Below, piece after piece: positions 3,413 to 36,466 of a stretch of DNA of 64,000 bases; position 1 is the first letter of the stretch; the number at the start of each line of letters is the position of its first letter. This DNA comes from Desulfobacteraceae bacterium. Its GTDB lineage: Bacteria; Desulfobacterota; Desulfobacteria; Desulfobacterales; UBA5616. Location: contig VMSV01000196.1 of the NCBI GenBank assembly GCA_013791935.1, positions 1-64,000 on the forward strand, given 5' to 3'. Below the pieces are notes generated by a model. It searched no databases and was not told where the DNA came from. It saw nothing but the letters and a program-made list of their open reading frames with translations. A program made the position numbers and the translations under genes.

Positions 3413-4116
3413 ATCGGGTAGCCGGGGGTTATTAACCCCCAGCCCCCACACCACCCGGCATTCGGGTCCGCACCGGGCGGTTCGCGAAGATACCGGGCCA
3501 TAGCCGGGTAATGACCTAAAACAGTTCTTTGAAAAACTGACGGCAACTGCTTTTGATCATCAGAAGCACCTTGTCCCATGACGCGCCTGTTTAGTTGCTC
3601 CCCCGTTCGGGTTCATCGCATTTCAGAGCTCATGGGGTATGCCACTGTTCTTCGCGTTTGGCCCTTCAGTGGGGTGAGACCTCCGCCGCCTCCGCATATG
3701 CGGGTCGCAGCTCGTTTCCGCTTGTCATTCCGCCAATAACAATGTCCGCACCTACTATGGCCTCTGCTGACTTCTGCCTGATCACCCTGCATGTTGCCAT
3801 GCAAAGCGCTGTCTTTCGACCGCATGTCAGGCAGATCTCCCCGGATAAGAACGTGAATTTCACTACACAACCGCAGCATTTACCCTATCTCCTGAATCCC
3901 GGGCTTCGTCATGTTGTGCTGACTTACCCGGAGACTGGGCCTTTTATGCTATTTCTGATCGTCGGTTCATAGTTTTGCGCTCGGGCTTCCTTCAGACCTT
4001 TCCTCGCCGAAACGCCCTTGCCGTCGGCTAATGTTTGTGTCAATGTCTTTCGACATTGACAGGATTCACACATAGGGGACTTACACCCCATTAATTCACG
4101 CCCATGCCGGGCGTAC
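3413..4116 (-). mobile_element. ORF-less group II intron relic inserted in attC
   Basis: Read on the minus strand, the segment begins GTACGCCCGGCATGGGCGTG, close to the GTGCG start of group II introns. It ends in a domain V-like hairpin (about 3450-3483: CGCCCGG and CCGGGTGG arms, GACC tetraloop), a domain VI-like hairpin (about 3421-3440) and the terminal CTACCCGAT. At 704 bases it is far shorter than a full intron of over 2 kb. Domain IV keeps only what may be the first codons of a reverse transcriptase (a minus-strand ATG near 3580), so the maturase is deleted. Removing the segment restores an attC inverse core, TGCTAAC. Insertion after minus-strand ATTGT in an attC hairpin is the known habit of class C-attC introns. 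The small ORFs inside are not genes. Confidence 0.72.
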
Positions 4117-5595: not shown

Positions 5596-6492
5596 ATGCC
5601 GGAAATTAAACAACATTTTTTTTATTTTGAAGGTAAAACAGCCGATTTTTTCCCATCAGTAGGATTAAAACTATCGGGAAATTGCAGATTCAAATGCCCC
5701 TTTTGTTGTGAGCCAAATCGAACTCAACAAGTATATCCCTTGAATAATTTTATTTCCATAGCAAACATTCTTAAAAAATTGGGCACAAGACGATTATGTT
5801 TTACGGGGGGCGACCCGCTATCACATAAAGATATAGGGGCCTTGCTGCAGTACACCAAGTCTTTAGATTTTTTTAATTTGTTATTAACAACAGATGCCAA
5901 GGCTCTAAAAGAAAAGCAAAGAGAGGTGATACCATTTGTTAGTGCCGTGCGTTTTAGTGTTCATGCAATTGGTTCAGAACATGATAATATAGTTGGCTGT
6001 CGTGGCTCTTTTAGAGCTACAGAAAAAATGATTGATGTCTTGCACGCAGAAAAGATTCCCTGCTACGTCACAACAGTTATAACTACAAAAAATATTATGT
6101 TCGTTAAAAATATTTTAGAATGGTGCGTTAAAAATGGAATTCAATCATATTTTATATTCGGTCTCATGCGAAGCGGTTTAGGCAATGACTTTATAAGAAA
6201 GTATGGGCAAGTTTCAGAACAAGAAATTTCAAATATTATTTCTATACTAAGAAATAAATATTCTCCTGAAGATATCGAAATTATATATTATGACTACTAT
6301 AAACAGGCTGATTGTGTATTGGTATATGGTGATGGAAAAATTATAATTGATCCATATCCAAAGCCGCCTACTTTTCAACTAGAAATTGGAAATATTTTCT
6401 CAGATACTCGAGAAGACATTTTGAAGTTTTTTTCACACGATCCAAAGAATTACGATGGTTATGTTAATCACTTTTTGAAGCACAAGAAATAA
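5596..6492 (+). CDS. Radical SAM enzyme, function unknown
   Basis: The 298-residue protein has the radical SAM cluster CRFKCPFC (Cys30, Cys34, Cys37; spacing CX3CX2C). FTGGDPL near residues 72-78 is the SAM-binding GGE-like motif. The family cleaves S-adenosylmethionine reductively to a 5'-deoxyadenosyl radical. No C-terminal SPASM cysteine cluster is present, so it is a minimal single-cluster enzyme of the general MoaA/PqqE shape. Prokaryotic viperins are of similar size, but the CNYxCxFCF context is not seen here, so I do not call it one. It is convergent with the methyltransferase operon (38-base gap). The substrate cannot be told from sequence. Confidence 0.85.
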   Translation: MPEIKQHFFYFEGKTADFFPSVGLKLSGNCRFKCPFCCEPNRTQQVYPLNNFISIANILKKLGTRRLCFTGGDPLSHKDIGALLQYTKSLDFFNLLLTTDAKALKEKQREVIPFVSAVRFSVHAIGSEHDNIVGCRGSFRATEKMIDVLHAEKIPCYVTTVITTKNIMFVKNILEWCVKNGIQSYFIFGLMRSGLGNDFIRKYGQVSEQEISNIISILRNKYSPEDIEIIYYDYYKQADCVLVYGDGKIIIDPYPKPPTFQLEIGNIFSDTREDILKFFSHDPKNYDGYVNHFLKHKK

Positions 6493-6530: not shown

Positions 6531-8390
6531 TTAAGGTTTCTTTGGGCTTAAAATTATTAAATATTCCATAACATTTTTTTGGGCGGTTCCGCCATGTGAT
6601 TTATGAACAAATTTCGCAGAATATGAGATAACTTCACAGCCTGTTTTCTGATAGACGCGTTCAACCACCTCACATATATCGGCTTGACCATTATCAGAGT
6701 AGCTCCAAGCGCAATGCCAACCTCTATTCAATATCTTTATAATAATATCTATTATTGTAGCTGTGGGCCTGCTGTTAGTTTTTGTGAAGAATTCAGATCG
6801 GAACCTATCGTTAGGTTTTGGAGTCAGGCCTATACCACTACAAGAAGGATATCTATATTCCACGAGAGTCTCTAAAACGTGATAAAAACGGCTATATTCT
6901 TCTCTTTTGTAAGGAGCATCAAGGTAAACTATAACTGGCACATTATATATCAGCGTATCTAAAGTACATAATGCACTTTCCCAAGGGCCAGGAATCGTTT
7001 CAATTTGATTTTTTGTAGAATGGCTTATTTCTGATAGATTGAGTAACCTGGCTGTAAATTCATGAGTTATTGATTGTGACCTTTTATATAAAATATCAGA
7101 TATATTGTTTTCGTTTAGAGCTAAATAATTTCTTATTGGAGGTTGAGCAAAATGCCCACCATAAGTTGTCCCCAAGAAGCTTGTAGTAGTAATCAAAGCT
7201 CCTAAAGCCCACATTCTCTCTTTCTTTTCTTTTATTATGTCAATTGCATAACGCAAACTATCAATTTCCAAACATTGTCTGAGCCCAAAAAATACATTGG
7301 CAAAATATGTTGTAAATAGACAATAAGGGTAAATTGAATTGTCTTTCCTTCTAATTTGAACCTCTGAGGTTGGGGACCAATCTTTTGTATTACTTGGTTT
7401 GCACAAAACTGGGAACTCGCGGACAAATCTTTTATAATCTTCAAGCAAAGAATCGTCTATCTCTCTACAAAAAACATCCTCTTCGTTTTCAATTTCATCG
7501 GCTAATAATGATTGTAACTCGATAAAATGTTTTTTTGCAATTGGCAAAATTCGCGATAGAAGATCTTTTGCTCCATTCCGGCTAAAACCTCCGCCATGAA
7601 CTACTGACAATATTCTGCAAAACTCTTGAGCATCGGACGAGTACGTTTTCCATATTTTATTAGTGGCACCCGAGACAATTCCAGAACCACACATTAAATC
7701 GACTACTACTCCAGACTCTGGGAGCACGGAAGCGATAGCTTCAACAATAAAACCACATAATGCTCTTTTTGATCCCATGTAGTAGGCTGACCGGGCAAAT
7801 TTGTTGATTTCGGTATTATCGATTATTTTTGCGCGATTTAACTGCGCTTTCACATACTCAATCACTTTGGGGTTAAGAGTGGCGATTGAAGCTTCTGATA
7901 AGTATTTACATTTATTTTTATTTATAAGATTATTTTCAGTCGATATCAGTTTATTATGTGATGATATTAAATTTTTTGTTGCTGAATAAAATAATGGATC
8001 TGTTATAGAATCTTTATTCAATAAATCTATTATCGTATGAGGGTTTATTCGGATAGTATCTTGTTCAAACAATTTCTGAGATCTAGGTTTTTCATCATTT
8101 TTATCACCACACAAAATGATTGAGTCTATCAAGGCTCTTACATCTTTCTTTAATACGAATGAGTGCTTCTCAAACTGATAGGTGGGAAGAATACCTACCT
8201 CTAATATATATTTTAGCTTTTCAGGATCGATGTCCTTTCCTAATTCATTTTGGAGGAAGTCTCTAATGCATTTCTCATTAATAAAAAGGTCCATTTTAGG
8301 AGAATTGGCTGATTTGTTCGGCAAATCAATATCGTCTTTATAAGTATGAACATGAAAAGAAATATTTGTTTTTGTCAATTTATCTTCCAT
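6531..8390 (-). CDS. Large D12-class adenine DNA methyltransferase (DAPY variant)
   Basis: The 619-residue protein carries the D12 order: a GSK motif (YMGSKRALCG near 205), SAM motif I (DLMCGSG, 231-237), and motif IV as DAPY (491-494) in place of DPPY. The words after motif IV (EYSRFYHVLETL) resemble those of the upstream methyltransferase (RSYGHYYHLPETI), so both probably modify adenine N6. About 200 N-terminal residues precede the enzyme and contain a small helical, possibly DNA-binding part. The Pro to Ala change in motif IV is unusual but may be tolerated. It is last in a three-gene leftward operon, five bases after the HAD gene. No restriction endonuclease is recognisable nearby. Confidence 0.85.
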   Translation of the reverse strand: MEDKLTKTNISFHVHTYKDDIDLPNKSANSPKMDLFINEKCIRDFLQNELGKDIDPEKLKYILEVGILPTYQFEKHSFVLKKDVRALIDSIILCGDKNDEKPRSQKLFEQDTIRINPHTIIDLLNKDSITDPLFYSATKNLISSHNKLISTENNLINKNKCKYLSEASIATLNPKVIEYVKAQLNRAKIIDNTEINKFARSAYYMGSKRALCGFIVEAIASVLPESGVVVDLMCGSGIVSGATNKIWKTYSSDAQEFCRILSVVHGGGFSRNGAKDLLSRILPIAKKHFIELQSLLADEIENEEDVFCREIDDSLLEDYKRFVREFPVLCKPSNTKDWSPTSEVQIRRKDNSIYPYCLFTTYFANVFFGLRQCLEIDSLRYAIDIIKEKKERMWALGALITTTSFLGTTYGGHFAQPPIRNYLALNENNISDILYKRSQSITHEFTARLLNLSEISHSTKNQIETIPGPWESALCTLDTLIYNVPVIVYLDAPYKREEYSRFYHVLETLVEYRYPSCSGIGLTPKPNDRFRSEFFTKTNSRPTATIIDIIIKILNRGWHCAWSYSDNGQADICEVVERVYQKTGCEVISYSAKFVHKSHGGTAQKNVMEYLIILSPKKP

Positions 8391-18841: not shown

Positions 18842-19251
18842 TTATTCCCCCGGTATTTTGCCAATTTTAAATGGTGGCTAAGCATGGGTGGTGGTTAAAT
18901 TAATAATCATTTAATAATAAATAGTTACGTTTAATCAACTCTCTTTTTATACTTGATCTAAGGCTTTCTTTTCAGGGAAATCCTCCGGGTTAAAAAACGG
19001 TGGCGAAGTGGTGGTTTCTCCATAAAGCCTTGCTCTGTAAGGCCTTACGGGAAGCGCCTTGGGCGATTTTTAAAAAAATAATTCATTTTGATTTTGATAA
19101 ATTCCTCCGTAAATTTCGCCACCAAAAAACCACCATTTAATTATGATTTTGGATGATTTTAGATTTTGAAGGATGAAGCACACATTAGATGTATATAAAT
19201 GATATGTCAACAAAAAATGACAGAATGTTGAAATACGTGATGGTCAATTTT
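18842..19251. promoter_or_regulatory. Integrase leader and right-end arm region
   Basis: The 410 bases between the integrase start and attR contain no gene. AACCACC-type words stand at 18887-18897 and 19008-19016 (inverted) and at 19118-19135 (direct, 11-base period). They match those just inside the left end at 537-556. The region likely holds the integrase promoter and the right arm sites used with attR. Confidence 0.55.
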
Positions 19252-19311
19252 GAGGACTCAAAATCCTCCGGGGGCAACCCCATGGGAGTTCGATTCTCCC
19301 CCTCGGCACCA
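19252..19311 (+). repeat. attR: 3' copy of tRNA-Leu
   Basis: These 60 bases match 406-465 with two differences in the variable arm. There is no 5' half, so it is not a working tRNA. Under the usual model of insertion into a tRNA 3' end, this is the original host 3' half, displaced by the element. The tRNA-type terminator that follows at 19323 supports that. Confidence 0.92.
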
Positions 19312-24526: not shown

Positions 24527-25510
24527 GTGTTTCCAGTGATAAAAAAATGCCCCCTTTGTGGCAAAACAAAAGGCAAGCGAGGATGCCGACTGCATGACAT
24601 GAAATTGATATGCCCGCGATGTTGTGCCGGTATTCGAAACGCGGAATGCGATCCCTGTTCACATCATCACTCTGCTGAGAATTACCAGGCTGATAAATAT
24701 CAAAAGTCGGGTGGCCGAGGGTTTGTGATTGAGTTGGATGAAACGATCGAGAAACAGGTGGACAAGGCGTTGGGAGAAATTGAAAGGGAACGTTTTACCG
24801 AAGCCCGGGAAATATTATCGCCCCTTTTTCAGTCGCATCCGCACAACCATTATATTCACTACGGTATGGGCGTTTTTTTTGCCTTTAAGGGCGAAAATCA
24901 GAAAGCGATCGTGCATTTTCAAAAGGCCGTTGAAATATTCCCCTATTTTGTGGAAGCGCATTATAATTTGGGCATTGCCTACAAGGAAGAGGTGAACATT
25001 GCCGGAATGGGGAGGGCTTTTCGAAAGGTGGTCAGATTGGGGGAACCGGATGATTCCGTTTGCCACGAAGCAAAAAAAATGCTGGCGGTACTGGAGAAGT
25101 CGGTCAGAGAAGTGAATGGAACGGATCTGGACACCTTTATCAGGGCACAGGATTTTTTTGAAAAAGGAATGTCGTTGATGGAAAAAGGTGAATGGATGAG
25201 GGCCATCGATGCGTATAAGGAAAGCCTGACCCTCAATGCCAGTACCCCGCAGGCATATGGCAACATGGGGCTTTGTTACGCAAGGTTGGGAAAGAAAGAG
25301 GCCGCCATGGAAGCCTTTGATAAAGCCTTGGCCATCGATCCTGATTACGAAGTCGCCATTGCCAATAAATTGGTCGCCGAAAAACTGGCGCCCGGGGAGG
25401 CGTTGGAAACACCGATACAAATCGTTGAGTACTATAAAGATTATAAAAAAGAAGGACGATCGTATCTTGAAGAGCGGGCGCAAGAATTAAAAAACCAACC
25501 TGAAATTTGA
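24527..25510 (+). CDS. Zinc-cluster TPR protein
   Basis: The 327-residue protein starts with a GTG (24527; a second GTG is three codons in). The first 50 residues hold eight Cys and several His (CPLCG, CPRCC, CDPCSHHH), likely a double zinc site. They are followed by at least five TPR-type helical pairs in two blocks (about 85-165 and 205-275), such as GNMGLCYARLGKKEAAMEAF. It is an adaptor-type protein. Its end overlaps an upstream TTG of jetA by a few bases, so co-expression with the jet operon is possible. A functional link is not shown. Confidence 0.8.
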   Translation: MFPVIKKCPLCGKTKGKRGCRLHDMKLICPRCCAGIRNAECDPCSHHHSAENYQADKYQKSGGRGFVIELDETIEKQVDKALGEIERERFTEAREILSPLFQSHPHNHYIHYGMGVFFAFKGENQKAIVHFQKAVEIFPYFVEAHYNLGIAYKEEVNIAGMGRAFRKVVRLGEPDDSVCHEAKKMLAVLEKSVREVNGTDLDTFIRAQDFFEKGMSLMEKGEWMRAIDAYKESLTLNASTPQAYGNMGLCYARLGKKEAAMEAFDKALAIDPDYEVAIANKLVAEKLAPGEALETPIQIVEYYKDYKKEGRSYLEERAQELKNQPEI

Positions 25511-25539
25511 CGCTCAAATTTAACGAAAAGGCATCCTCC

Positions 25540-26790
25540 GTGTCCATCACCACTTTCCAAGGATTTTTAGCCACAGCAAACCTGCACCAAGGGCTGCTGG
25601 TGGACCTGTGCGCCGAGCCGGGGGTGATCAGCCGTGCCAAGCTGCTCACCTATATGGAGCGGCACGGGATTTCGCCCGCAGATAAGGACCGACTCATCGA
25701 GCGCTACTGTCGAACGTCCATTCTATATGAAGAGGCGGATTTCGAATACAGCGTTAATCCGGTGGTGGTCGGCCTGGTCAATTTTTATGAGCGACGGGGA
25801 CGGCTGACCCATGCGGGATTTCTGAGGGATCAGATCTTCGAGATCGGAAAACTCACTGACACCCTGCAACAGCTGCTTTTTGCTGAATTACCGGAAATGG
25901 ATGGGATCATCGATACGGTGGACAAAATCTATCTGGTGGTTCGGGAAGTGCGGGAAAGTGGCTACCAGCACTACCAGGCCTGTATGCGCGCTTTCGGGGA
26001 CATGAAGCGAAATAGTGGGGAACGGCCCATCGATGTGAGAATCGAGGAGCTAAAAACCGTGCACCGGCGGTATATCGAACCGCTCAGGGAACTCATCGAC
26101 CCCAACGCAGAGCCGGTCCGGAAGATGGCATTACTTCGCCGCCGCATGGCCGATCTCGGGGTCGATGCCGGACTTCTTTCCGAATCCGTTGAACTCGATA
26201 TCCGGCGGGCCCGGCTTGCCATCGATATCCAGTACATCGACCATGTCCTGATCCGGCATTTTGAAACCCTGATCGATACCAGCCGGGCGCTACTGAACTC
26301 ACTTTTAGAGGAAAAAAGCATTAAGGATGCGCTGGCCGCCTGTCTCGGCGACCTCGGCGGAATCTGGGAAAACCTGACAGCAGATACCATCGTACTCACC
26401 GGTTTTCAGGCCAGCCAGACGGCAGGCATGGACAGACAGGGGGCTTTTTTCAATGACGTGATCCACGGAAAATTCATCCCTCGACCTCGGCCTCTTTCCA
26501 TCACACTGCCAAAAGAGGAACGGGCCGACCACCTACTTCTTTTCGATGATCTTCTTCTTTCGCGGATGGAGAAGGATCGTCGCATTGACAGCTGGCCGGG
26601 GTTTGTGATTCGGGAATATGTCGCCTACCCCCCTGATGAGCGGCTAAAAGCCATTGCCTTGCCGCTAATCATGGCGAATCCCCCGTTTGTCGTTCGGATG
26701 AGCGAGCAGACGTTTTCAGGGGATTTGAAGGAGTATACAGTGGAGTTGACCGATTTCGATATTGTCTGGGAGGGTGACAATGGGCGATGA
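25540..26790 (+). CDS. jetA: Wadjet-like JetA (MksF/kleisin-type subunit)
   Basis: The product has about 416 residues from the GTG at 25540, with AAAAGG upstream; a TTG at 25507 would add 11 residues. It is helical with a winged-helix-like N-terminus, as expected for the kleisin of an Mks condensin. Assignment rests mainly on the operon: it is followed by a small JetB-like, a large SMC-like JetC and a TOPRIM JetD, in the canonical order. Wadjet recognises and cleaves small circular plasmid DNA by loop extrusion. Its end overlaps jetB by 11 bases. Confidence 0.82.
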   Translation: MSITTFQGFLATANLHQGLLVDLCAEPGVISRAKLLTYMERHGISPADKDRLIERYCRTSILYEEADFEYSVNPVVVGLVNFYERRGRLTHAGFLRDQIFEIGKLTDTLQQLLFAELPEMDGIIDTVDKIYLVVREVRESGYQHYQACMRAFGDMKRNSGERPIDVRIEELKTVHRRYIEPLRELIDPNAEPVRKMALLRRRMADLGVDAGLLSESVELDIRRARLAIDIQYIDHVLIRHFETLIDTSRALLNSLLEEKSIKDALAACLGDLGGIWENLTADTIVLTGFQASQTAGMDRQGAFFNDVIHGKFIPRPRPLSITLPKEERADHLLLFDDLLLSRMEKDRRIDSWPGFVIREYVAYPPDERLKAIALPLIMANPPFVVRMSEQTFSGDLKEYTVELTDFDIVWEGDNGR

Positions 26791-27364
26791 CACGCCGGAA
26801 GAGACCGCCAGAATCATTCAGATCCTGCTGCGGGGCTACCAGTTCAGCGATGCCGATCTGTTCAAACCCGGCTATGACCGCTGGTACAATATCCTGGACC
26901 GTCATTTCGACTGGTTCCGGGAGCATCTGAGTTTAAGCGGATTTTCGCTACGCCGGGACCATTCAGTGATTTTCCTTGAAAAGGAAAACAAGCTCCTGAG
27001 CCAGGAGGAAAAGCAGATTGTGGTCGTGCTTTTTCTACTGACCGATCTGTGGTTGGAAAAGGGGAAGAGTTTCGGTGATCTGTTCCAGCTCAGCGTTTCC
27101 TGGACGGAGCTGGACTGGTTCCGGGACGGCTATGGCCGCGAGTATCTGGGCCAGGTGGGCATTGAAATGGGTGACGACGGTGAAATGGAACAGCTTTTCA
27201 GACGGCTTTCAAATAAAGGGTTTTTAGAATACAGCACAGCGTCGCGGACCCTGACCCTTCGAAGACCTGCAGAACGGTTGATCAATATGGCCCGTCGGTT
27301 GCACCGGCAGATCCAGGCCGCAGGGGTCGATGCCCGGAAGGAGGAAGCCCGGAACCATGAGTGA
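26780..27364 (+). CDS. jetB: Wadjet-like JetB (MksE/KITE-type subunit)
   Basis: From the ATG at 26780, with a GGGAGGGTGAC site, the product has 194 residues. It consists of winged-helix-like elements typical of KITE subunits that bind the kleisin. A TTG at 26762 is a weaker start. It overlaps both neighbours (11 bases with jetA, 8 with jetC), so the operon is translationally coupled. Confidence 0.82.
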   Translation: MGDDTPEETARIIQILLRGYQFSDADLFKPGYDRWYNILDRHFDWFREHLSLSGFSLRRDHSVIFLEKENKLLSQEEKQIVVVLFLLTDLWLEKGKSFGDLFQLSVSWTELDWFRDGYGREYLGQVGIEMGDDGEMEQLFRRLSNKGFLEYSTASRTLTLRRPAERLINMARRLHRQIQAAGVDARKEEARNHE

Positions 27365-30092
27365 TTATACCGCAAGCATCCGCCGGATCGGCCTCATCAA
27401 CAGCGGCATGTTCGATACCCTGTCTCTCAATTTCGACGTCAAAGCCATTCACCTGGTCGGGGCCAACAACGTTGGGAAAACGAGTCTGATCGCCGTGATT
27501 CAGTTCCTGTTTTTCCCGAATTTCAACGAAATGACCTTCATCAAATCATCCGGTGAGTCCATGGGGTTTTATTTCCGGCCCGAGGGCTCCTACATTTTGT
27601 TTGAAGTGCGCACCATCACCGGAAGCATCCGGACAGTCGGTATTTACGGCACCGGCGAGTCGGACGGCCGGGTCAATTTCGTGTTCAATGGCGGGTTTGA
27701 TCTTAATGAATTTTTGAGCGAAGAGAGCACGCCAAAGCCGCTTCAGGAGCTTCAAGCCGTATTTTTCAGCCGGAACTTCCATCGGTTCGACCGGTTCGAG
27801 CGTTATGAGGAGGCGCTTCTGGGCCTTCACACCCACGGCGAATACAATGTACCCATGTTCGATCTTTCCAAGACCAATTTCAGGCTGCTTCGAAAGCTCA
27901 TGCAGGGCCTGCTTCGGCTCGATCGCATCGATGCGGCGGAGGTCCAGGATCTTCTGGTACGGATTGTGGAGAGGGGGGCGGTGAAAACCCGTTTCAACAT
28001 GCTCCAGGATTTCGAGCAGAAGTACCGTCATATCAATCAGGTCCGGATTGAGCTTCGGGAACTGGAGGCACTGAAGCCAGTGGTGGCCCGGTACCAGAAG
28101 ATACGCGCCCGCATAGGCGAGACAGAGGAAAAGAGAAGATCTCATTCCGAGCGGCTGTTTCATCTCTCTTCGGTTTACATGGCCAGGCTTGAAAAAGAAA
28201 AAGAGACCCTTGCCCGGGAATTCAAAACCCAGGAAACGCAGCATGAAACCCTCGGCGAACAGATCAAGGCCCGGATGAAGCGCATCGGTGATGCGGAGTC
28301 CGCCTTAGCTTCGGTCAAAGAAGCAAAGGAGCGATTGGAGGCCTTGACGGAAATCTGCAGGCAGCATTCGGAATCTCTCATCCGTCGGGAGCGGGACGAA
28401 CGAGCTCATGCCAAGGTGGTGCTTGAAAACGCCCTGTCCACCGCCAGGCCCCAAAACATTCCGGACCTCAAACGTCAGCTGATGTCGATCCGCCGGGAAC
28501 TTGCGGGGGCAAGAAGGCGGATGGAAGCCAAAACCCTGCAACAGGTCTGGGTGGATGCCGGTTTCGATGAGATGCACCGGGCTCTTCTTTCATTTCTGGT
28601 GTCCAATGATCTGTCCAGCCTTTCGGCCTCCGATTGTATGCAGAACCGGCAGGCGTTTGTCGATGCCTCGTTGCAAGCGGCGGACTATCTGGATGCAGAG
28701 GGCAACTTCAAGGGGTTTGGCCTGAACGTTCCACGGTCGCTCTGGTTTGTTCCAGAAATGGAACAAGAACCACTTATGGCCCAGTGTGACCGGCTTGAAG
28801 AGAATATGGCGAAAATTCATGGCGAGATCGATATCGCAGAAAATCAGGAAAAGAAACGACAGGAACTCTCGTCCCTGACAGCGGAGATTCAAGCCAGGGA
28901 CACCCTGCTTGGCCGGTTTACCGAACTTGCCAACCTCAGCGAAAGATGGGAAAGCCCGGAAAATATCGAAACCAAACACGCTCAACAGGCCGATGAATTA
29001 AAACAGCTCGGTGATGCCGTTGATACCATGGAGGCGGAGGCCCGGTCCTTACGCCAGACCCAACACCGGACCCACAGCGCTCTTGAAGCGGCAGAAGCGC
29101 GGTGGCGGCAAGTCTGCCGGGAGCATGAATCGCTAACGGCGTTTACGTCCGTTCTACCGGAAATATTGGATGCGCTTACCCTGGAAGCATTACGGGATGA
29201 ATACACCCTGGTCCGCGGGAATCTCTCCGAGATCGTGAAATCACTGGATAGGTACCAGATGGAGCTTGACGAACCGAGGGTAGAGCTGGAAGCCCGGTAT
29301 GAAAAGTCAGGGGCGGATGTCGGCTTCGAAAAATGGCTGGTGCTAAAAACGAACCTTGCGGGAGAAATTACGGGGCTGGAAGCGCAGCTGACGCGGGAGT
29401 ACGAGGGGATTTTTACCGTGGTCCGGGCAAAACTCTCCAAAATCACCCAGGCCTATGAGAGCGTGGAGGCCGAGGTGGCGGCGCTCAACAAGGGTATTCG
29501 AAACGTTCGGATTTCCAATATCGAACAGATCGGAATCGCCCTGGAAAAAACCAGCCTGCTGGATGCCATCGACCTGAGCGTTCCCGGCCAGTTGGATCTG
29601 TTTGCCACCCGGTCCGGCGGTGGTTCCCTGGAGGAAGCCCACGCTCAAGTGGAGGACTATTTCAACCATATCAAGCAGTACGGCAACGAAATCAATCTGA
29701 AGGACATGTTCCGGATCAAGTTTTCCGTAAAGTTCAACCATCAGGCTCAGCCGGTGGAGCGATACGAGATACATCGGTTCGAGTCCAACGGTACAGAGAC
29801 GGGGGTGAAAATCGTAATTTATCTCGGACTGATCGGACTTCTTCAGGAGCGAAAAAATGTTGTCGCAACCAGAATCCCGTTTTTCCTGGACGAGGTCGGC
29901 AGCATCGATTCGGAGAACTTGAATCAACTCATAGCCTACTGCAGCCTCAACAACTTCCTACCGATTTTCGCCAGTCCGGAAATTCGCAAGGATATTTCTT
30001 GCAACTATCTTTTCAGACGAAACGGAAGCCGAAGCTTATTGGCGTCCGTGGTTAAAATCTCTGAAAGGAAACCTTCGGCAGGTAGCACATGA
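27357..30092 (+). CDS. jetC: Wadjet-like JetC (MksB/SMC ATPase)
   Basis: The 911-residue SMC-type ATPase starts at the ATG at 27357 (GGAGGAAGCC upstream). Walker A is GANNVGKTSLI near residue 34. Two long coiled-coil arms (roughly 225-380 and 480-760) flank a central region with hinge-like character. Near the C-terminus FFLDEVGSIDSENL is the Walker B/D-loop region. This is the motor that extrudes DNA loops in Wadjet. It is somewhat short for the family, which suggests one of the shorter-armed Jet types; I do not assign the subtype. Confidence 0.9.
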   Translation: MSDYTASIRRIGLINSGMFDTLSLNFDVKAIHLVGANNVGKTSLIAVIQFLFFPNFNEMTFIKSSGESMGFYFRPEGSYILFEVRTITGSIRTVGIYGTGESDGRVNFVFNGGFDLNEFLSEESTPKPLQELQAVFFSRNFHRFDRFERYEEALLGLHTHGEYNVPMFDLSKTNFRLLRKLMQGLLRLDRIDAAEVQDLLVRIVERGAVKTRFNMLQDFEQKYRHINQVRIELRELEALKPVVARYQKIRARIGETEEKRRSHSERLFHLSSVYMARLEKEKETLAREFKTQETQHETLGEQIKARMKRIGDAESALASVKEAKERLEALTEICRQHSESLIRRERDERAHAKVVLENALSTARPQNIPDLKRQLMSIRRELAGARRRMEAKTLQQVWVDAGFDEMHRALLSFLVSNDLSSLSASDCMQNRQAFVDASLQAADYLDAEGNFKGFGLNVPRSLWFVPEMEQEPLMAQCDRLEENMAKIHGEIDIAENQEKKRQELSSLTAEIQARDTLLGRFTELANLSERWESPENIETKHAQQADELKQLGDAVDTMEAEARSLRQTQHRTHSALEAAEARWRQVCREHESLTAFTSVLPEILDALTLEALRDEYTLVRGNLSEIVKSLDRYQMELDEPRVELEARYEKSGADVGFEKWLVLKTNLAGEITGLEAQLTREYEGIFTVVRAKLSKITQAYESVEAEVAALNKGIRNVRISNIEQIGIALEKTSLLDAIDLSVPGQLDLFATRSGGGSLEEAHAQVEDYFNHIKQYGNEINLKDMFRIKFSVKFNHQAQPVERYEIHRFESNGTETGVKIVIYLGLIGLLQERKNVVATRIPFFLDEVGSIDSENLNQLIAYCSLNNFLPIFASPEIRKDISCNYLFRRNGSRSLLASVVKISERKPSAGST

Positions 30093-30916
30093 ATCTTCCG
30101 TCCTGGCTCACCACACTGGTGAATAGGGGGGTGGTGGCACACTCGGCCGCGAACCCGAAAATACTGGCCGAATTGATTACCCTGGGAATCGTGGCCATCA
30201 AAACAGCCGGCATCCGCCGAACAGTCGTTGAAGCCAAACCGGAACAGCTCCGCATATGGCTTGATGCCCGGTATCCGGATCACGGCAGGATCCCGAATGC
30301 GGCCCGTATCCGGGAGGGGAACATTCTACGCAGCGGCGGCAGCAAAGCCGGAAGCAGCGCCCACGGGGTGCTCTCGTTTCAGTTCAAGTGGTTCGGCAAG
30401 GAGGATGATTTATGGACACAAATGACCAGAACGTATGGGGTGGCGGCGGTTCTGACCGACCGGTTGGCGGTTCTCACGCTGTCGGCCAGGTGGCGCCTTT
30501 TAACCATTGAAAACTGGGAGCCTTTTTTCCGGGCGGATTATTCCGGAGCACCGGTTCCGGTCATGGTGGCCTACCTGGGCGGGAATGCACCCGGGAGCGT
30601 GATGGATGCGCTGAAAACATTTCCAACCCCGCCTGTATCGGTTCTTCATTTCGGAGATTACGATTGGGAGGGGCTGTATATCTTTCAGCGCCTGCAGAAG
30701 GTTCTGCCACAGGCCAGGCTTTATATCCCGGACAATATCGAGACACTTTTCAAACAGTTCGGCAAGCTGAATTTGATCGAAAATCAGAGGCGTAAAGCCT
30801 TGTTTGATGAAAATAACATGGAATGCCTTCCAGTGATAAAACTCATCGAGCAGCACAACGCCGGTCTGGAGCAGGAAATCGTCGGATTGCCGGGGACGGC
30901 ACATATCTCATCCTAA
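30089..30916 (+). CDS. jetD: Wadjet-like JetD (TOPRIM nuclease)
   Basis: The 275-residue protein starts with an ATGA overlap on jetC. It ends in a TOPRIM-like region, HFGDYDWEGLYIFQRL, giving the DxD metal motif near residue 190. JetD is the nuclease that cuts the plasmid trapped by JetABC. Two oddities: at 275 residues it looks shorter than most JetD proteins, and the strand before the DxD (PVMVAYLGGN) lacks an obvious catalytic Glu. Either the metal site is built differently or cutting is impaired. Confidence 0.85.
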   Translation: MNLPSWLTTLVNRGVVAHSAANPKILAELITLGIVAIKTAGIRRTVVEAKPEQLRIWLDARYPDHGRIPNAARIREGNILRSGGSKAGSSAHGVLSFQFKWFGKEDDLWTQMTRTYGVAAVLTDRLAVLTLSARWRLLTIENWEPFFRADYSGAPVPVMVAYLGGNAPGSVMDALKTFPTPPVSVLHFGDYDWEGLYIFQRLQKVLPQARLYIPDNIETLFKQFGKLNLIENQRRKALFDENNMECLPVIKLIEQHNAGLEQEIVGLPGTAHISS

Positions 30917-32713: not shown

Positions 32714-33487
32714 TCATTTTTGATTGTGATACAACCAGCCATCCTGCTCAGCTTTTCTTCGATATTTAAATCCATTCTTCAATAGCTTTAGACTTAGTGC
32801 TTGGTAAAACCTATTCCTTAAGGAGTTGTTTTTATTTGGGGGTAATGTGCTCTTGTGAACGAGACTTTCGACCTCAGGAGTCATCTGAAGTTCGCCAGAA
32901 AACTGATGGACAATATCAGCAAAGGCAATGGCTTCTTGGTCCAAGTCATGAAAAATTCCAACTCTTTTGTTATTATCAAAGTAATCTAAATTTCCGCCTG
33001 GCACTTCCCCGAACATAGTAAATCCAGTCAAAAATAGTTTTTCCAATGGAAAAAGCCTTAATATAGTATACAAAGCGTATGTCCCCGTCGTGAACCATCT
33101 CGTCCTAATACCTGATGTAATGCCAAAAATATCAGGCGCCAAAGAAATCACGTAAGGAATATCACCAATCCATTCTTTTAATTTACCAAGGTCAAGATCT
33201 CTTTTGGGTTGTACAAAGACAACAATACATTTTGGCTGCAATGCTTCTGATGGAAGGGGGGACCTTTCAATACAGTTAATGTCATTTGAAAATAACACAT
33301 CGGTTTTACTGCCTATATTTTCTTCAAATCCTTTTGTGTAGGCTCTATTAAAGCGAACCACCATATCGTGGGAGTCAATTGTCCGACCGTTATTCCAAGA
33401 GGTGATCGAGGAAGAATTTCCGACAAAGGCAGCAGAACGAACATGCGAAAACATGTCACGAAAATCAAAAATATCTATTTTCTCCAT
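32714..33487 (-). CDS. GT29 sialyltransferase-like glycosyltransferase
   Basis: The 257-residue protein has both sialylmotif-like blocks of GT29. The first is AAFVGNSSSITSW through IDSHDMVVRFNRAY and IGSKTDV (motif L). The second is FTTGTYALYTILRLF with LFLTGFTMFG (motif S). GT29 enzymes transfer sialic acid from CMP-sialate and are mainly eukaryotic, with rare bacterial relatives. No membrane anchor is seen, so it is probably cytosolic. It is last in a leftward cluster with a CMP-sialate-synthetase-like gene, a strong contextual match. Confidence 0.75.
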   Translation of the reverse strand: MEKIDIFDFRDMFSHVRSAAFVGNSSSITSWNNGRTIDSHDMVVRFNRAYTKGFEENIGSKTDVLFSNDINCIERSPLPSEALQPKCIVVFVQPKRDLDLGKLKEWIGDIPYVISLAPDIFGITSGIRTRWFTTGTYALYTILRLFPLEKLFLTGFTMFGEVPGGNLDYFDNNKRVGIFHDLDQEAIAFADIVHQFSGELQMTPEVESLVHKSTLPPNKNNSLRNRFYQALSLKLLKNGFKYRRKAEQDGWLYHNQK

Positions 33488-33562
33488 TATTAGCTTTCAT
33501 CTTTTAAAAACAGTTCTTGTCTGCAAATGTGGTTTTAAGTGACTGCTCTTTTGTTGTCCCCT

Positions 33563-34261
33563 CTAACAACTGACTGTTATGGGTCTGAGTTCGGGGAGAC
33601 CGTCCATGATTGCATATTTCAAAATAAAGTCAAAACGATCGACATCTGTACAAAAATCAAAATCCGCCTCCGATGCCCAGTGGATATCAGAATCAAAAAA
33701 TTTTTTGGCATCCGGTGAAATACGGAGTCTTGCCCTGATTTCGACCCGACTCATGCGCTCTCCGTTGAGCGCCCGGCATATATATTCGGCACACAGTGTA
33801 TCCTCATCTGAAGGGCGTATATCTCTGTGGCCCATACACATCAGAGAAACACTATCCGGGTTCTGTTTCTGGATATAGCGGACAATTGCCCCTGCATTGC
33901 AGAAACTACCACTAACAAGCTCTGATGCTCCGACTGCTGCCTGAAAACCCTGCGTACCGGCACTGGTCGTGAAAACAACCGTTCTGCCCTTAAGGTCCAG
34001 TTCTATCGCCTTTGAAGGTGAATTGCCAAAATCCGCTTCAGGTAGTTTTTCTCCAGCCCGCTCTCCTGCAAAAAAGAAATCGGGATTGTGTTGTTTTAGA
34101 TCATACGCTTTTCCTGCATCTGCCAATGGAATCAATCTTTTTGCACCTCTCTCAATAAAGCAGCAAGCTGTTGTGAAAGCTCGAAACACATCAATAATCA
34201 CCGTCAAACCCTCAGCCTTCACTCCCTCCCGGCTCTGCTGCAAGATGCGAATATCAAACAT
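33563..34261 (-). CDS. ComB-like 2-phosphosulfolactate phosphatase family protein
   Basis: The 232-residue protein carries VIIDVFRAFTTACCFIERGA, then FFAGERAGEKLPEADFGNSP and TTSAGTQGFQ. These match the ComB family, Mg-dependent phosphatases that hydrolyse 2-phospho-3-sulfolactate in coenzyme M synthesis. No ComA/ComC partner is here. In this cluster it may instead remove a phosphate from a nonulosonate or related acid before CMP activation. Its ATG overlaps the end of the TIM-barrel gene by eight bases. Confidence 0.8.
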   Translation of the reverse strand: MFDIRILQQSREGVKAEGLTVIIDVFRAFTTACCFIERGAKRLIPLADAGKAYDLKQHNPDFFFAGERAGEKLPEADFGNSPSKAIELDLKGRTVVFTTSAGTQGFQAAVGASELVSGSFCNAGAIVRYIQKQNPDSVSLMCMGHRDIRPSDEDTLCAEYICRALNGERMSRVEIRARLRISPDAKKFFDSDIHWASEADFDFCTDVDRFDFILKYAIMDGLPELRPITVSC

Positions 34262-35138
34262 GCGTTGTCTGCCTCAGCTCTGGGGCATAACGGCTGATGG
34301 TCTCTAGAACACAAACCATTTGCCTGACACGTTCCTCGATCTCATTCTGACTCGGGAGATGATTCTGATGACCTTGTGAAACTGCACCACATTTGAGATA
34401 TACCGGAGCACATAGACGGATAATCTCCGGAATTTGTGGTGTACGAATCATGCCACCTGCATCAGCAGCAGTATCCGAGAAGATATCCAGTGTGCAGGAC
34501 ACCGCTTGTCTAACAGCCGACAGCATCGGTAACTCCAGATCTGGAACCAGATTAATGCTGTCCGCCCCCACCTCTGAAAACAGGGCCGCCGCAGCCGGAT
34601 TAGCACAACCGCTATGCACTGAAAGTTTGAGCCGGATGTCCCCGGGAAGCTCACCCTTATTTCTCAGTTTGCTGATCACTGAAAGCAGTCCTTCATCATA
34701 AACTAGAAAATCCCTAACCCCGAGTTCCACCCCCTTGATCACATCATCCAGAGCGTACATAACGTTATCCATGCCCCTGAGCCGGTAACCCACCCGAACA
34801 CCGTTCTTGGCTCTTACGAAGCCACCCGTGTCATAAACCGCACGGGGGCCAATGGAGAACACCGGTGCAATGTTCCGCTCGCGACAAAGCACTACCATTT
34901 CAGAAATTTCTTTTTCCGGGAGTCGGAAAATTCCGCGGCACTCATCTACTCGATTAACGCGTACCCCTGCGGCATCCGTCAAAGTCAACACAGTTTCAAG
35001 TATCTTTAAATTATTGATACTTGAAAGCTCTATACCAAAAGCGCCCCCGTCCGGAAAGCTAAGTTGTGAAGATGGCAACCCGTAATTATCTCGACCTGGC
35101 AGAGATATCGTTTCCAACAATTCATGTGATCGCAGCAT
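34254..35138 (-). CDS. TIM-barrel protein, U32-peptidase-like
   Basis: The product has about 294 residues from the ATG at 35138; an ATG at 35159 would overlap the previous gene further. Alternating strand/helix units end in GVRDFLVYDEG, LKLSVHSGCANP, GADSINLVPDLE and APVYLKCGAVSQGH. The pattern is that of a (beta/alpha)8 barrel, closest in look to U32-family proteins. The conserved cysteines could hold a metal or cluster. The role in the cytidylyltransferase-ComB-GT29 cluster is unknown; a carbon-carbon lyase/synthase or an oxygen-independent hydroxylase are possibilities by analogy. Confidence 0.6.
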   Translation of the reverse strand: MLRSHELLETISLPGRDNYGLPSSQLSFPDGGAFGIELSSINNLKILETVLTLTDAAGVRVNRVDECRGIFRLPEKEISEMVVLCRERNIAPVFSIGPRAVYDTGGFVRAKNGVRVGYRLRGMDNVMYALDDVIKGVELGVRDFLVYDEGLLSVISKLRNKGELPGDIRLKLSVHSGCANPAAAALFSEVGADSINLVPDLELPMLSAVRQAVSCTLDIFSDTAADAGGMIRTPQIPEIIRLCAPVYLKCGAVSQGHQNHLPSQNEIEERVRQMVCVLETISRYAPELRQTTHV

Positions 35139-35853
35139 GCTCCAATTCCTTCCATCCAATTTTCTTGAGAAGATACTCGGTCATACAGATGTCCTCAAGG
35201 GAGTGCACATCCCCGCCAGAAACATTCTCAATATACAGAATCTTGTTCCCAAGGTAGGAAAACGGTGGTTGTCCGTTGGGCGGGAAACAATGGTTGTAAC
35301 GTATTACCCTTACTGCGCCGTCCAAAACAAAACAGGGCTCCAGATTTTGCCTGTTGGTAGATGTGTTTTCTGGCATCTCCAGCCAAGTGGATAGTGTGCC
35401 GTTGGATGTGATTTTCTTGGTCCGGTACGGGTGGATGGAATGATCAATATAGCCGCTCACACAAGAATCTGCTTCTGGCGCACCAGCGAGTTTCTCTATC
35501 GCTTCATCGACTATGCCCTGCCTGTGCACTCCGCAATTGCAGTGCATGGTGATCAAAAAATTAATCTCGCAACCGATACTCTCAACCGCATGATTAATCG
35601 CATCAACAAGTTCTGAGCTGTCCTGAGCCAGAGCATGAGGGCGGTCAATAATACATACACCCATTTCTCGGGCTACACGTTTTATATCCTCACAATCCGT
35701 GGAAACATAAACATCATCAATAAGCGTCGCCTCTTTTGCAGCATGCATGGCGTAGTAGACAAGAGGCCGCCCCAAGACCGGATAAACATTCTTGCCTTTC
35801 ACAGATTTGCTTCCACCTCTTCCGGTAAGCAACACAATATTTTTTCCACTCAT
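35122..35853 (-). CDS. CMP-sialate-synthetase-like cytidylyltransferase
   Basis: The 243-residue protein begins NIVLLTGRGGSKSVKGKN, then LGRPLVYYAMHAA and DDVYVSTDCEDIKRVAREMG. This is the signature of the NeuA/KdsB nucleotidyltransferases that couple CTP with an acidic sugar. It is first in the leftward four-gene cluster. The activated substrate is unknown; a nonulosonic acid is the obvious idea, given a GT29 enzyme downstream. No NeuB condensing enzyme is in the window, which is the main gap in that story. Confidence 0.85.
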   Translation of the reverse strand: MSGKNIVLLTGRGGSKSVKGKNVYPVLGRPLVYYAMHAAKEATLIDDVYVSTDCEDIKRVAREMGVCIIDRPHALAQDSSELVDAINHAVESIGCEINFLITMHCNCGVHRQGIVDEAIEKLAGAPEADSCVSGYIDHSIHPYRTKKITSNGTLSTWLEMPENTSTNRQNLEPCFVLDGAVRVIRYNHCFPPNGQPPFSYLGNKILYIENVSGGDVHSLEDICMTEYLLKKIGWKELEHAAIT

Positions 35854-36466
35854 ATTTAATCACTCCATTCTTATTACAGCGAGGTAATGCGGCTCTAATC
35901 ATCGCATGGTCAGCACCCTTATCCTTGGTCCATATATGCCGGCCTGGCTTAATGACGCGGACCTTTAAAAAGCAGTCCGTGATGTGTTCAGCCAGGCAGC
36001 TCGGGAGTGATTTTCAAACATGCTGATGCCAGCTGTCTTCCAGCCTGTGAACAGCTTTCTCTCTTCGCACAGCGCTTGTTCTACTTGTCTCCGTTATTGC
36101 TTTTACAAGTCATCTCAAAAATAATATCATCACCCCATGGCGGGGTTGTGACCCTTTTCCAAAGACTCAGGATGGTTTTTTTATGATTACCTGATTCTTT
36201 AGGAAAATCCAACCTATTTTAGTGGCCATCCTGAATGGGGAGAAAAGCGAGAGCCTCTATGATTTAACTCTGCGCTGAACTTTCTTCACCCAATCCAATA
36301 TCCCAACTTCGCTTTGCCTGGCACGTGTCCATAAAATAATTTAAAAATAATTGATTTGTTGAGGAAAAATGGTGTAAAAACAGAATCAACTCACTTCAAA
36401 ATCGACCTGTCAAGAAGTAGTCATAAAGGACGCTCAACAACCGATTGTTCTTAAGGACGCCTCAAT
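35854..36466. other. Intergenic region with a fragment of a repeat
   Basis: About 610 bases without a recognisable gene; it must hold the promoters for the leftward sugar cluster and the rightward GIY-YIG operon. At about 36110-36130 the words ACAAGTCATCTCAAAA match the arm of the 145-base palindromic element at 51491-51635, suggesting a decayed copy. Confidence 0.5.

Follow-up and report, generated by a model that had tools for sequence, protein, structure and literature searches.

Systems that deliver acidic sugars from CMP donors, such as NeuB-NeuA-sialyltransferase and KdsA-KdsC-KdsB-WaaA, follow one logic, with a barrel enzyme, a phosphatase, a CTP-dependent synthetase and a CMP-using transferase. 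The four-gene run described here follows the same logic with different parts: in contrast to the CMP-nonulosonate and CMP-Kdo systems, its barrel is U32-like rather than NeuB or KdsA, its phosphatase is of the ComB rather than the HAD type, and the acid pocket of its synthetase (CMPS) is different. Its transferase shares family GT29 and motifs L, S, III and VS with the bacterial GT29 sialyltransferases, of which 23 sequences have been described, 19 of them alphaproteobacterial (PMC5811610); unlike those, it is joined in operon-like fashion with a CMP-acid synthetase homologue, a U32-like barrel (U32L) and ComB. A ComB-family phosphatase is also found in the coenzyme M/sulfolactate route (ComA-ComB), but here ComA was not found in the genome, and a cytidylyltransferase and GT29 replace ComC/ComDE. 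In phosphonate activation, PntC likewise couples a small acid to CMP (PMC6697681). However, PntC is LicC-like whereas CMPS belongs to PF02348, and no PEP mutase scored above cut-off in the genome (TIGR02320, 126 bits versus 320). Lastly, the run is preceded by a leader that resembles T-box riboswitches in its Stem I hallmarks, AUC (Ile) specifier and stem III, but differs from them in being divergent, in having no canonical UGGN or terminator, in its position ahead of a CMP-acid gene and in a Shine-Dalgarno sequence that complements the specifier region.

The window, which is the whole 64,000-nt stretch of DNA analyzed (contig VMSV01000196.1, Desulfobacteraceae bacterium), was said in a preliminary description to hold a CMP-sialate-synthetase-like enzyme, a U32-like barrel, a ComB-like phosphatase and a GT29 enzyme in one run. 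Pfam matches bore this out: the run exists, and it is an unusual one. Its parts are:

35853-32714, minus strand: run of four ORFs, transcribed in the order CMPS, U32L, ComB, GT29
35122..35853, minus strand: CMPS, 243 aa, a CMP-acid synthetase-like cytidylyltransferase with sialic-acid pocket residues replaced (PF02348, 7.2e-13; PDB 6ifd, 3.8e-18)
34254..35138, minus strand: U32L, 294 aa if it starts with the ATG at 35138 (301 aa with a TTG at 35159), a U32-like barrel with the U32 cysteines missing (weak PF01136 match; hhalign)
33563..34261, minus strand: ComB, 232 aa, 2-phosphosulfolactate phosphatase-like (PF04029, 4.9e-45; PDB 1vr0, 3.7e-18)
32714..33487, minus strand: GT29, 257 aa, a sialyltransferase-family transferase with all four sialylmotifs (PF00777, 2.2e-15)

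With the ATG at 35138 as its start codon, preceded by an AAGGA box, U32L overlaps CMPS by a few bases. Between U32L and ComB the overlap is 8 nt, and a gap of 75 nt separates the ComB stop from the GT29 start. None of the four ORFs is broken, and each has the motifs of its family. The GC content of CMPS, U32L and ComB is 0.47-0.50 and that of GT29 is 0.38, compared with approximately 0.52-0.55 for the flanking genes; because of these differences the islet looks acquired and the origin of GT29 may be separate, making GT29 a possible later arrival in the run. No further glycan genes were seen among the ORFs of the window, which were inspected by eye.

We tentatively favor the reading that the run is a horizontally acquired mini-operon for making and transferring an acidic building block that is activated with CMP and is not Neu5Ac, with confidence somewhat short of even. 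U32L would make or reshape a small phosphorylated hydroxy- or oxo-acid, and ComB, judged by its family, would take the phosphate off. CMPS, which retains its CTP-binding part, would join the free acid to CMP, and the GT29-family enzyme would move it from CMP onto a surface glycan, probably LPS. The mRNA would begin with the divergent T-box leader, with its Stem I reading an isoleucine codon. The preliminary description had also suggested a sequence of making, activating and transferring an acid, and the gene set fits this (a phosphatase, a cytidylyltransferase and a CMP-using GT29, with neither NeuB nor KdsA in the run). As to the acid itself, the pocket residues argue against Neu5Ac and, with no ComA found in the genome, ComB is probably outside the sulfolactate route. 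Points in favor of the reading are the overlaps and common strand of the genes, their family assignments, the four sialylmotifs, the residues kept and replaced in CMPS, the similar pattern and phosphatase neighbour of its top match in G328, the failure to find ComA or an above-threshold PEP mutase, a NeuB that lies elsewhere with its own partner, the evidence for Kdo synthesis from KdsB, and the T-box match. Points against it are the occurrence of the run on two near-identical contigs only, the deviating GC of GT29 and the gap ahead of it, the catabolic look of most loci with U32L relatives (often beside PanB-like genes), the lost Asp211 of CMPS and the lack of further glycan genes among the window's ORFs.

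CMPS scored 49.3 bits against PF02348 (cut-off 22.6), and the RGGSK..KN CTP-binding motif was present in the alignment. The closest solved relatives are CMP-Neu5Ac synthetases (6ifd, 4e-18; 1eyr, 3e-10), and the best scores were obtained with PseF and CMP-Neu5Ac synthetase, although the cut-off of the PseF equivalog was not reached (79.7 versus 205.7). In the Neisseria enzyme (CNS), Gln104, Thr106, Lys142, Asn175 and Tyr179 belong to the pocket, Asp209 and Asp211 serve the metal, and alanine mutants of the metal aspartates are severely impaired (PMC2901514). Pairwise alignment with N. meningitidis CNS, whose numbering is used here, revealed that CMPS retains RGGSK..KN, Arg165, Gln166 and Asp209. 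In the pocket, Gln104 is replaced by His, Thr106 by Asn, Lys142 by Arg, Asn175 by Asp and Tyr179 by Arg; the second metal aspartate, Asp211, is replaced by His, and the QPTSPLR segment of the usual enzymes reads HCNCGVHR. Since sialic-acid pocket residues and one metal aspartate are replaced, Neu5Ac is, as far as the alignment can tell, an unlikely substrate of CMPS; the loss of Asp211 could also mean a weakened enzyme. The top match among 395 genomes of the phylum (G328, 33% identity) has the same Asp/His pattern (GRDIHS) and adjoins a HAD-family phosphatase. A second clade of top matches is characterized by GRKGSKG...CNAATV...LLPQKWMG and has HisC-like aminotransferases, radical SAM proteins and sulfotransferases as neighbours (partly judged by eye).

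NeuB is missing from the window, as the preliminary description reported, but the genome has a single NeuB, identified on another contig (C249) in a cluster of its own. This NeuB adjoins an SpsF-like cytidylyltransferase and thus has its own partner. The genome also carries KdsB on C94, with a partial second copy on C266, which indicates that it makes Kdo, and another CTP_transf_3 on C189. No NeuB or KdsA was found within the four-gene run. A nonulosonate pathway could in principle be scattered over the genome, with the C249 NeuB making the acid, CMPS activating it and GT29 acting as a true sialyltransferase-like enzyme, and the best scores of CMPS, with PseF and CMP-Neu5Ac synthetase, agree with such an arrangement. 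We consider it decidedly improbable, given that C249 already has its SpsF-like enzyme, that the acid pocket of CMPS is not conserved and that ComB and U32L would be left unexplained.

ComB scored 153.8 bits against PF04029 (cut-off 26.4) and retained every invariant column in a six-member alignment. Its score against TIGR00298 was 66.4 with a cut-off of 175, and the thresholds for the named enzyme were missed. ComA (PF02679) was not found in the window's genome or in G466, the genome with the second copy of the run. Because of the missed thresholds and the failure to find ComA, ComB is probably not part of the known ComA sulfolactate route.

Analysis of U32L gave a PF01136 match below the curated cut-off (E 0.0045, 16.7 versus a gathering score of 22.4), and hhalign of the U32L family with a true U32 protein gave 97%, for the barrel core only. 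No cysteine was invariant across the family (11 relatives), so the U32 Fe-S site is absent from U32L. Kinship of the family with ComA, PanB, the PEP-mutase-family protein or NeuB was rejected, as hhalign showed no relation. A profile search of the PDB with U32L returned only a weak class II aldolase match (E 0.03), and the AlphaFold2 models made without an alignment were unusable (pLDDT 40 for U32L and 34 for GT29). Relatives of U32L were present in 33 of 340 genomes of the class; in the loci that were read they were mostly 31-36% identical, and several adjoined PanB-like, IclR, aminotransferase or transporter genes. By their gene content, most of these loci look catabolic.

Two loci with U32L relatives differ in content. 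At locus L079 (G447:C236), a relative with 40% identity has as neighbours a phosphonopyruvate decarboxylase homologue (420 bits, cut-off 312), a C-C lyase (PF15617) and a PrpD-like protein, and no PEP mutase match was found in the G447 genome. An Enterobacter plasmid (NZ_CP097174.1, 6934-16918; locus L025) carries an uncharacterised, biosynthetic-looking cluster that contains an APH kinase, U32L, a 2-hydroxyacid dehydrogenase, an aminotransferase, a haem-oxygenase-like protein, DUF2817, an MFS transporter and NTP_transf_5. From the loci read we infer that U32L substrates are small 2-oxo or 2-hydroxy acids.

These gene neighbourhoods bear on the idea that U32L stands in for ComA, adding an anionic group to PEP or an oxo-acid to give a 3-substituted lactate that is dephosphorylated by ComB. 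It would account for a ComB in a genome in which ComA was not found, and it accords with the phosphonopyruvate decarboxylase homologue without a PEP mutase match in G447 and with the 2-hydroxyacid dehydrogenase and aminotransferase on the plasmid. However, similarity between U32L and ComA is undetectable and most U32L relatives are in catabolic-looking loci, and we regard the idea as very unlikely. More generally, the joint action of barrel and phosphatase proposed in the preliminary description was not supported by the company that U32L keeps, as no ComB or CMPS homologue adjoined any of the U32L relatives examined.

GT29 scored 57.2 bits against PF00777 (cut-off 23). Its sialylmotifs L (FVGNSSSITSWNNGRTIDSHDMVVRFNRAYTKGFEENIGSKTD), S (TTGTYALYTILRLFPLEKLFLTGF), III (YFDNN) and VS (HDLDQE) align with phage and bacterial homologues, and matches to mammalian ST3Gal/ST6Gal structures ranged from 9e-8 to 1e-4. 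Only one other GT29 match, a weak one, was detected in the 395 phylum genomes. In a 484-kb uncultured phage genome (L088; LR756508.1, 321494-330797), four GT29-like stretches lie near one another; sialylmotif L occurs in every one of them, and S, III and VS are also visible. Apart from the present run, tblastn identified no CMPS-like or U32L neighbour at any of the GT29 genes examined from bacteria, plasmids and phages. This result, together with the GC content of 0.38 versus 0.47-0.50 and the 75-nt gap before GT29, would suit a real metabolic operon of CMPS, U32L and ComB whose CMP-acid is used otherwise, with GT29 as an unrelated downstream arrival. We judge this somewhat unlikely, since the GT29 family uses CMP donors and the position of a rare GT29 beside a CMP-acid synthetase homologue would then be a coincidence.

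Directly 5' of CMPS lies a T-box leader that was not mentioned in the preliminary description. The features of this region are:

35823..36106, minus strand: divergent T-box leader (RF00230, 47.7 bits, E 2.6e-9, model positions 1-219 of 219; gathering score 93)
36011-36009, minus strand: specifier AUC (Ile) in the Stem I specifier loop, placed by the TBDB rule
35858..35866, minus strand: CMPS Shine-Dalgarno region GGAGUGAUU, the perfect complement of AAUCACUCC at 36012-36004

In the second copy of the run the T-box scored 49.6 bits (E 4e-9 to 4e-8), likewise under gathering. The hallmarks of Stem I (GA motif, AGUA, AGAGA, GNUG and specifier loop) are all visible; the stem displays a lower GC pair, GGAG/CUCC, the loop ACAAGUA/GAAAAUCA, AGAGA and GCUGGAA, and stem III is CCUGGCUGAA...UUAAGCCAGG. 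The GA motif is intact in the second copy (GCGAUGA) and broken in the window (GCAAUAA). The TBDB rule counts from the end of the specifier bulge and takes bases 2-4 as the specifier; AUC makes up 99% of the Ile specifiers in the table of the same paper (PMC7778990). No canonical UGGN was found in the leader, nor the UGGU that would match the tRNA-Ile discriminator, with AAGGGUGCUGACCAUGCG the nearest sequence by eye, and no terminator was found ahead of the CMPS ATG; because of the latter, control must be translational if the leader still works.

The segment that complements the Shine-Dalgarno region, AAUCACUCC, includes the specifier. A match of at least 9 bp occurred in 0.16% of 5000 dinucleotide shuffles (P = 0.0016, in a test chosen post hoc), and part of the complementarity is due to the normal CUCC of Stem I. 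In the predicted ensemble the Shine-Dalgarno/specifier pairing dominates and the Stem I conformer is approximately 3 kcal/mol higher; the GGAG of the Shine-Dalgarno sequence is largely paired in both predicted conformers, and the leader fold as a whole is not unusually stable (z -1.2). A T-box search at related loci gave none. In one survey, proteobacterial T-boxes occurred before leuA only, in two species (PMC2494555), and a T-box leader ahead of genes such as these is very unusual. The leader may be working, modified or decaying, and it suggests a possible direct specifier/Shine-Dalgarno switch. A fuller scheme, in which a new kind of U32-like barrel and ComB lead to a surface acid that is activated with CMP but belongs with neither the nonulosonates nor Kdo, and in which a T-box of novel design lets uncharged tRNA-Ile on the specifier free the Shine-Dalgarno sequence, is in our estimate highly doubtful.

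A second copy of the four-gene run was identified only on G466:C207, a 99.8% identical contig that appears to be JAHIFE010000151.1 (the coordinates agree). The whole of this 37-kb contig matches window 976-37966 with 99.82% identity, G466 is placed in a different family, and a protein encoded near the window's far end could not be matched in G466. Either mis-binning or a very recent transfer accounts for the presence of the contig in two bins, one of which is probably wrong; the two near-identical contigs therefore represent one independent occurrence of the run. Relatives of CMPS and GT29 were searched for in 395 phylum genomes and relatives of U32L in 340 class genomes, and at all CMPS, U32L and GT29 loci examined other than the two copies a second member of the four was absent. 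The preliminary description had named separation of the four genes elsewhere as a point against its reading, and in these searches the genes were together nowhere beyond the near-identical contig. Among viral contigs no relatives turned up for CMPS, GT29, U32L or a related U32L, and the literature searched gave no account of such a set of genes.

The two copies show 65 differences; the stretch 36086-36316 accounts for 11 of these and the 3.1 kb of coding DNA for 1. So rare a cluster may also be a decaying or chimeric islet of little or no function, its T-box left over from a lost amino-acid gene. The T-box score under gathering, the broken GA motif in the window copy, the lack of a canonical UGGN and a terminator in the leader and the loss of one metal aspartate from CMPS point in this direction. 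We nevertheless hold decay to be unlikely, as the four ORFs are intact with family motifs and a single one of the 65 inter-copy differences falls in coding DNA.

Several other features were observed in the window. An SMC-type gene run resembling Wadjet adjoins the islet (25507-30916), with weak JetB, JetC and JetD matches and a JetD that looks short (275 aa). A radical SAM protein encoded at 5596-6492, in a low-GC stretch, matches prokaryotic viperin models (pVip, 6e-12), and a type II methyltransferase match (6531-8390) and a HAD-like protein are located near it in low-GC DNA. Group II intron domains RF02001 and RF01998 scored above gathering on the minus strand at 3724-4013. Two tRNA-Leu(CAA) genes (379-465 and 19227-19311) flank a stretch with low-GC genes, which may be an integrated element.

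If the preferred reading of a mini-operon for a CMP-activated acid is true, CMP-donor chemistry would reach beyond ulosonic acids, U32-like barrels without Fe-S cysteines would acquire a testable role, and bacterial GT29 would gain a candidate donor that is not sialic acid. Few T-boxes have been reported in Gram-negative bacteria, and the leader would add one ahead of a gene with no known part in amino-acid supply.
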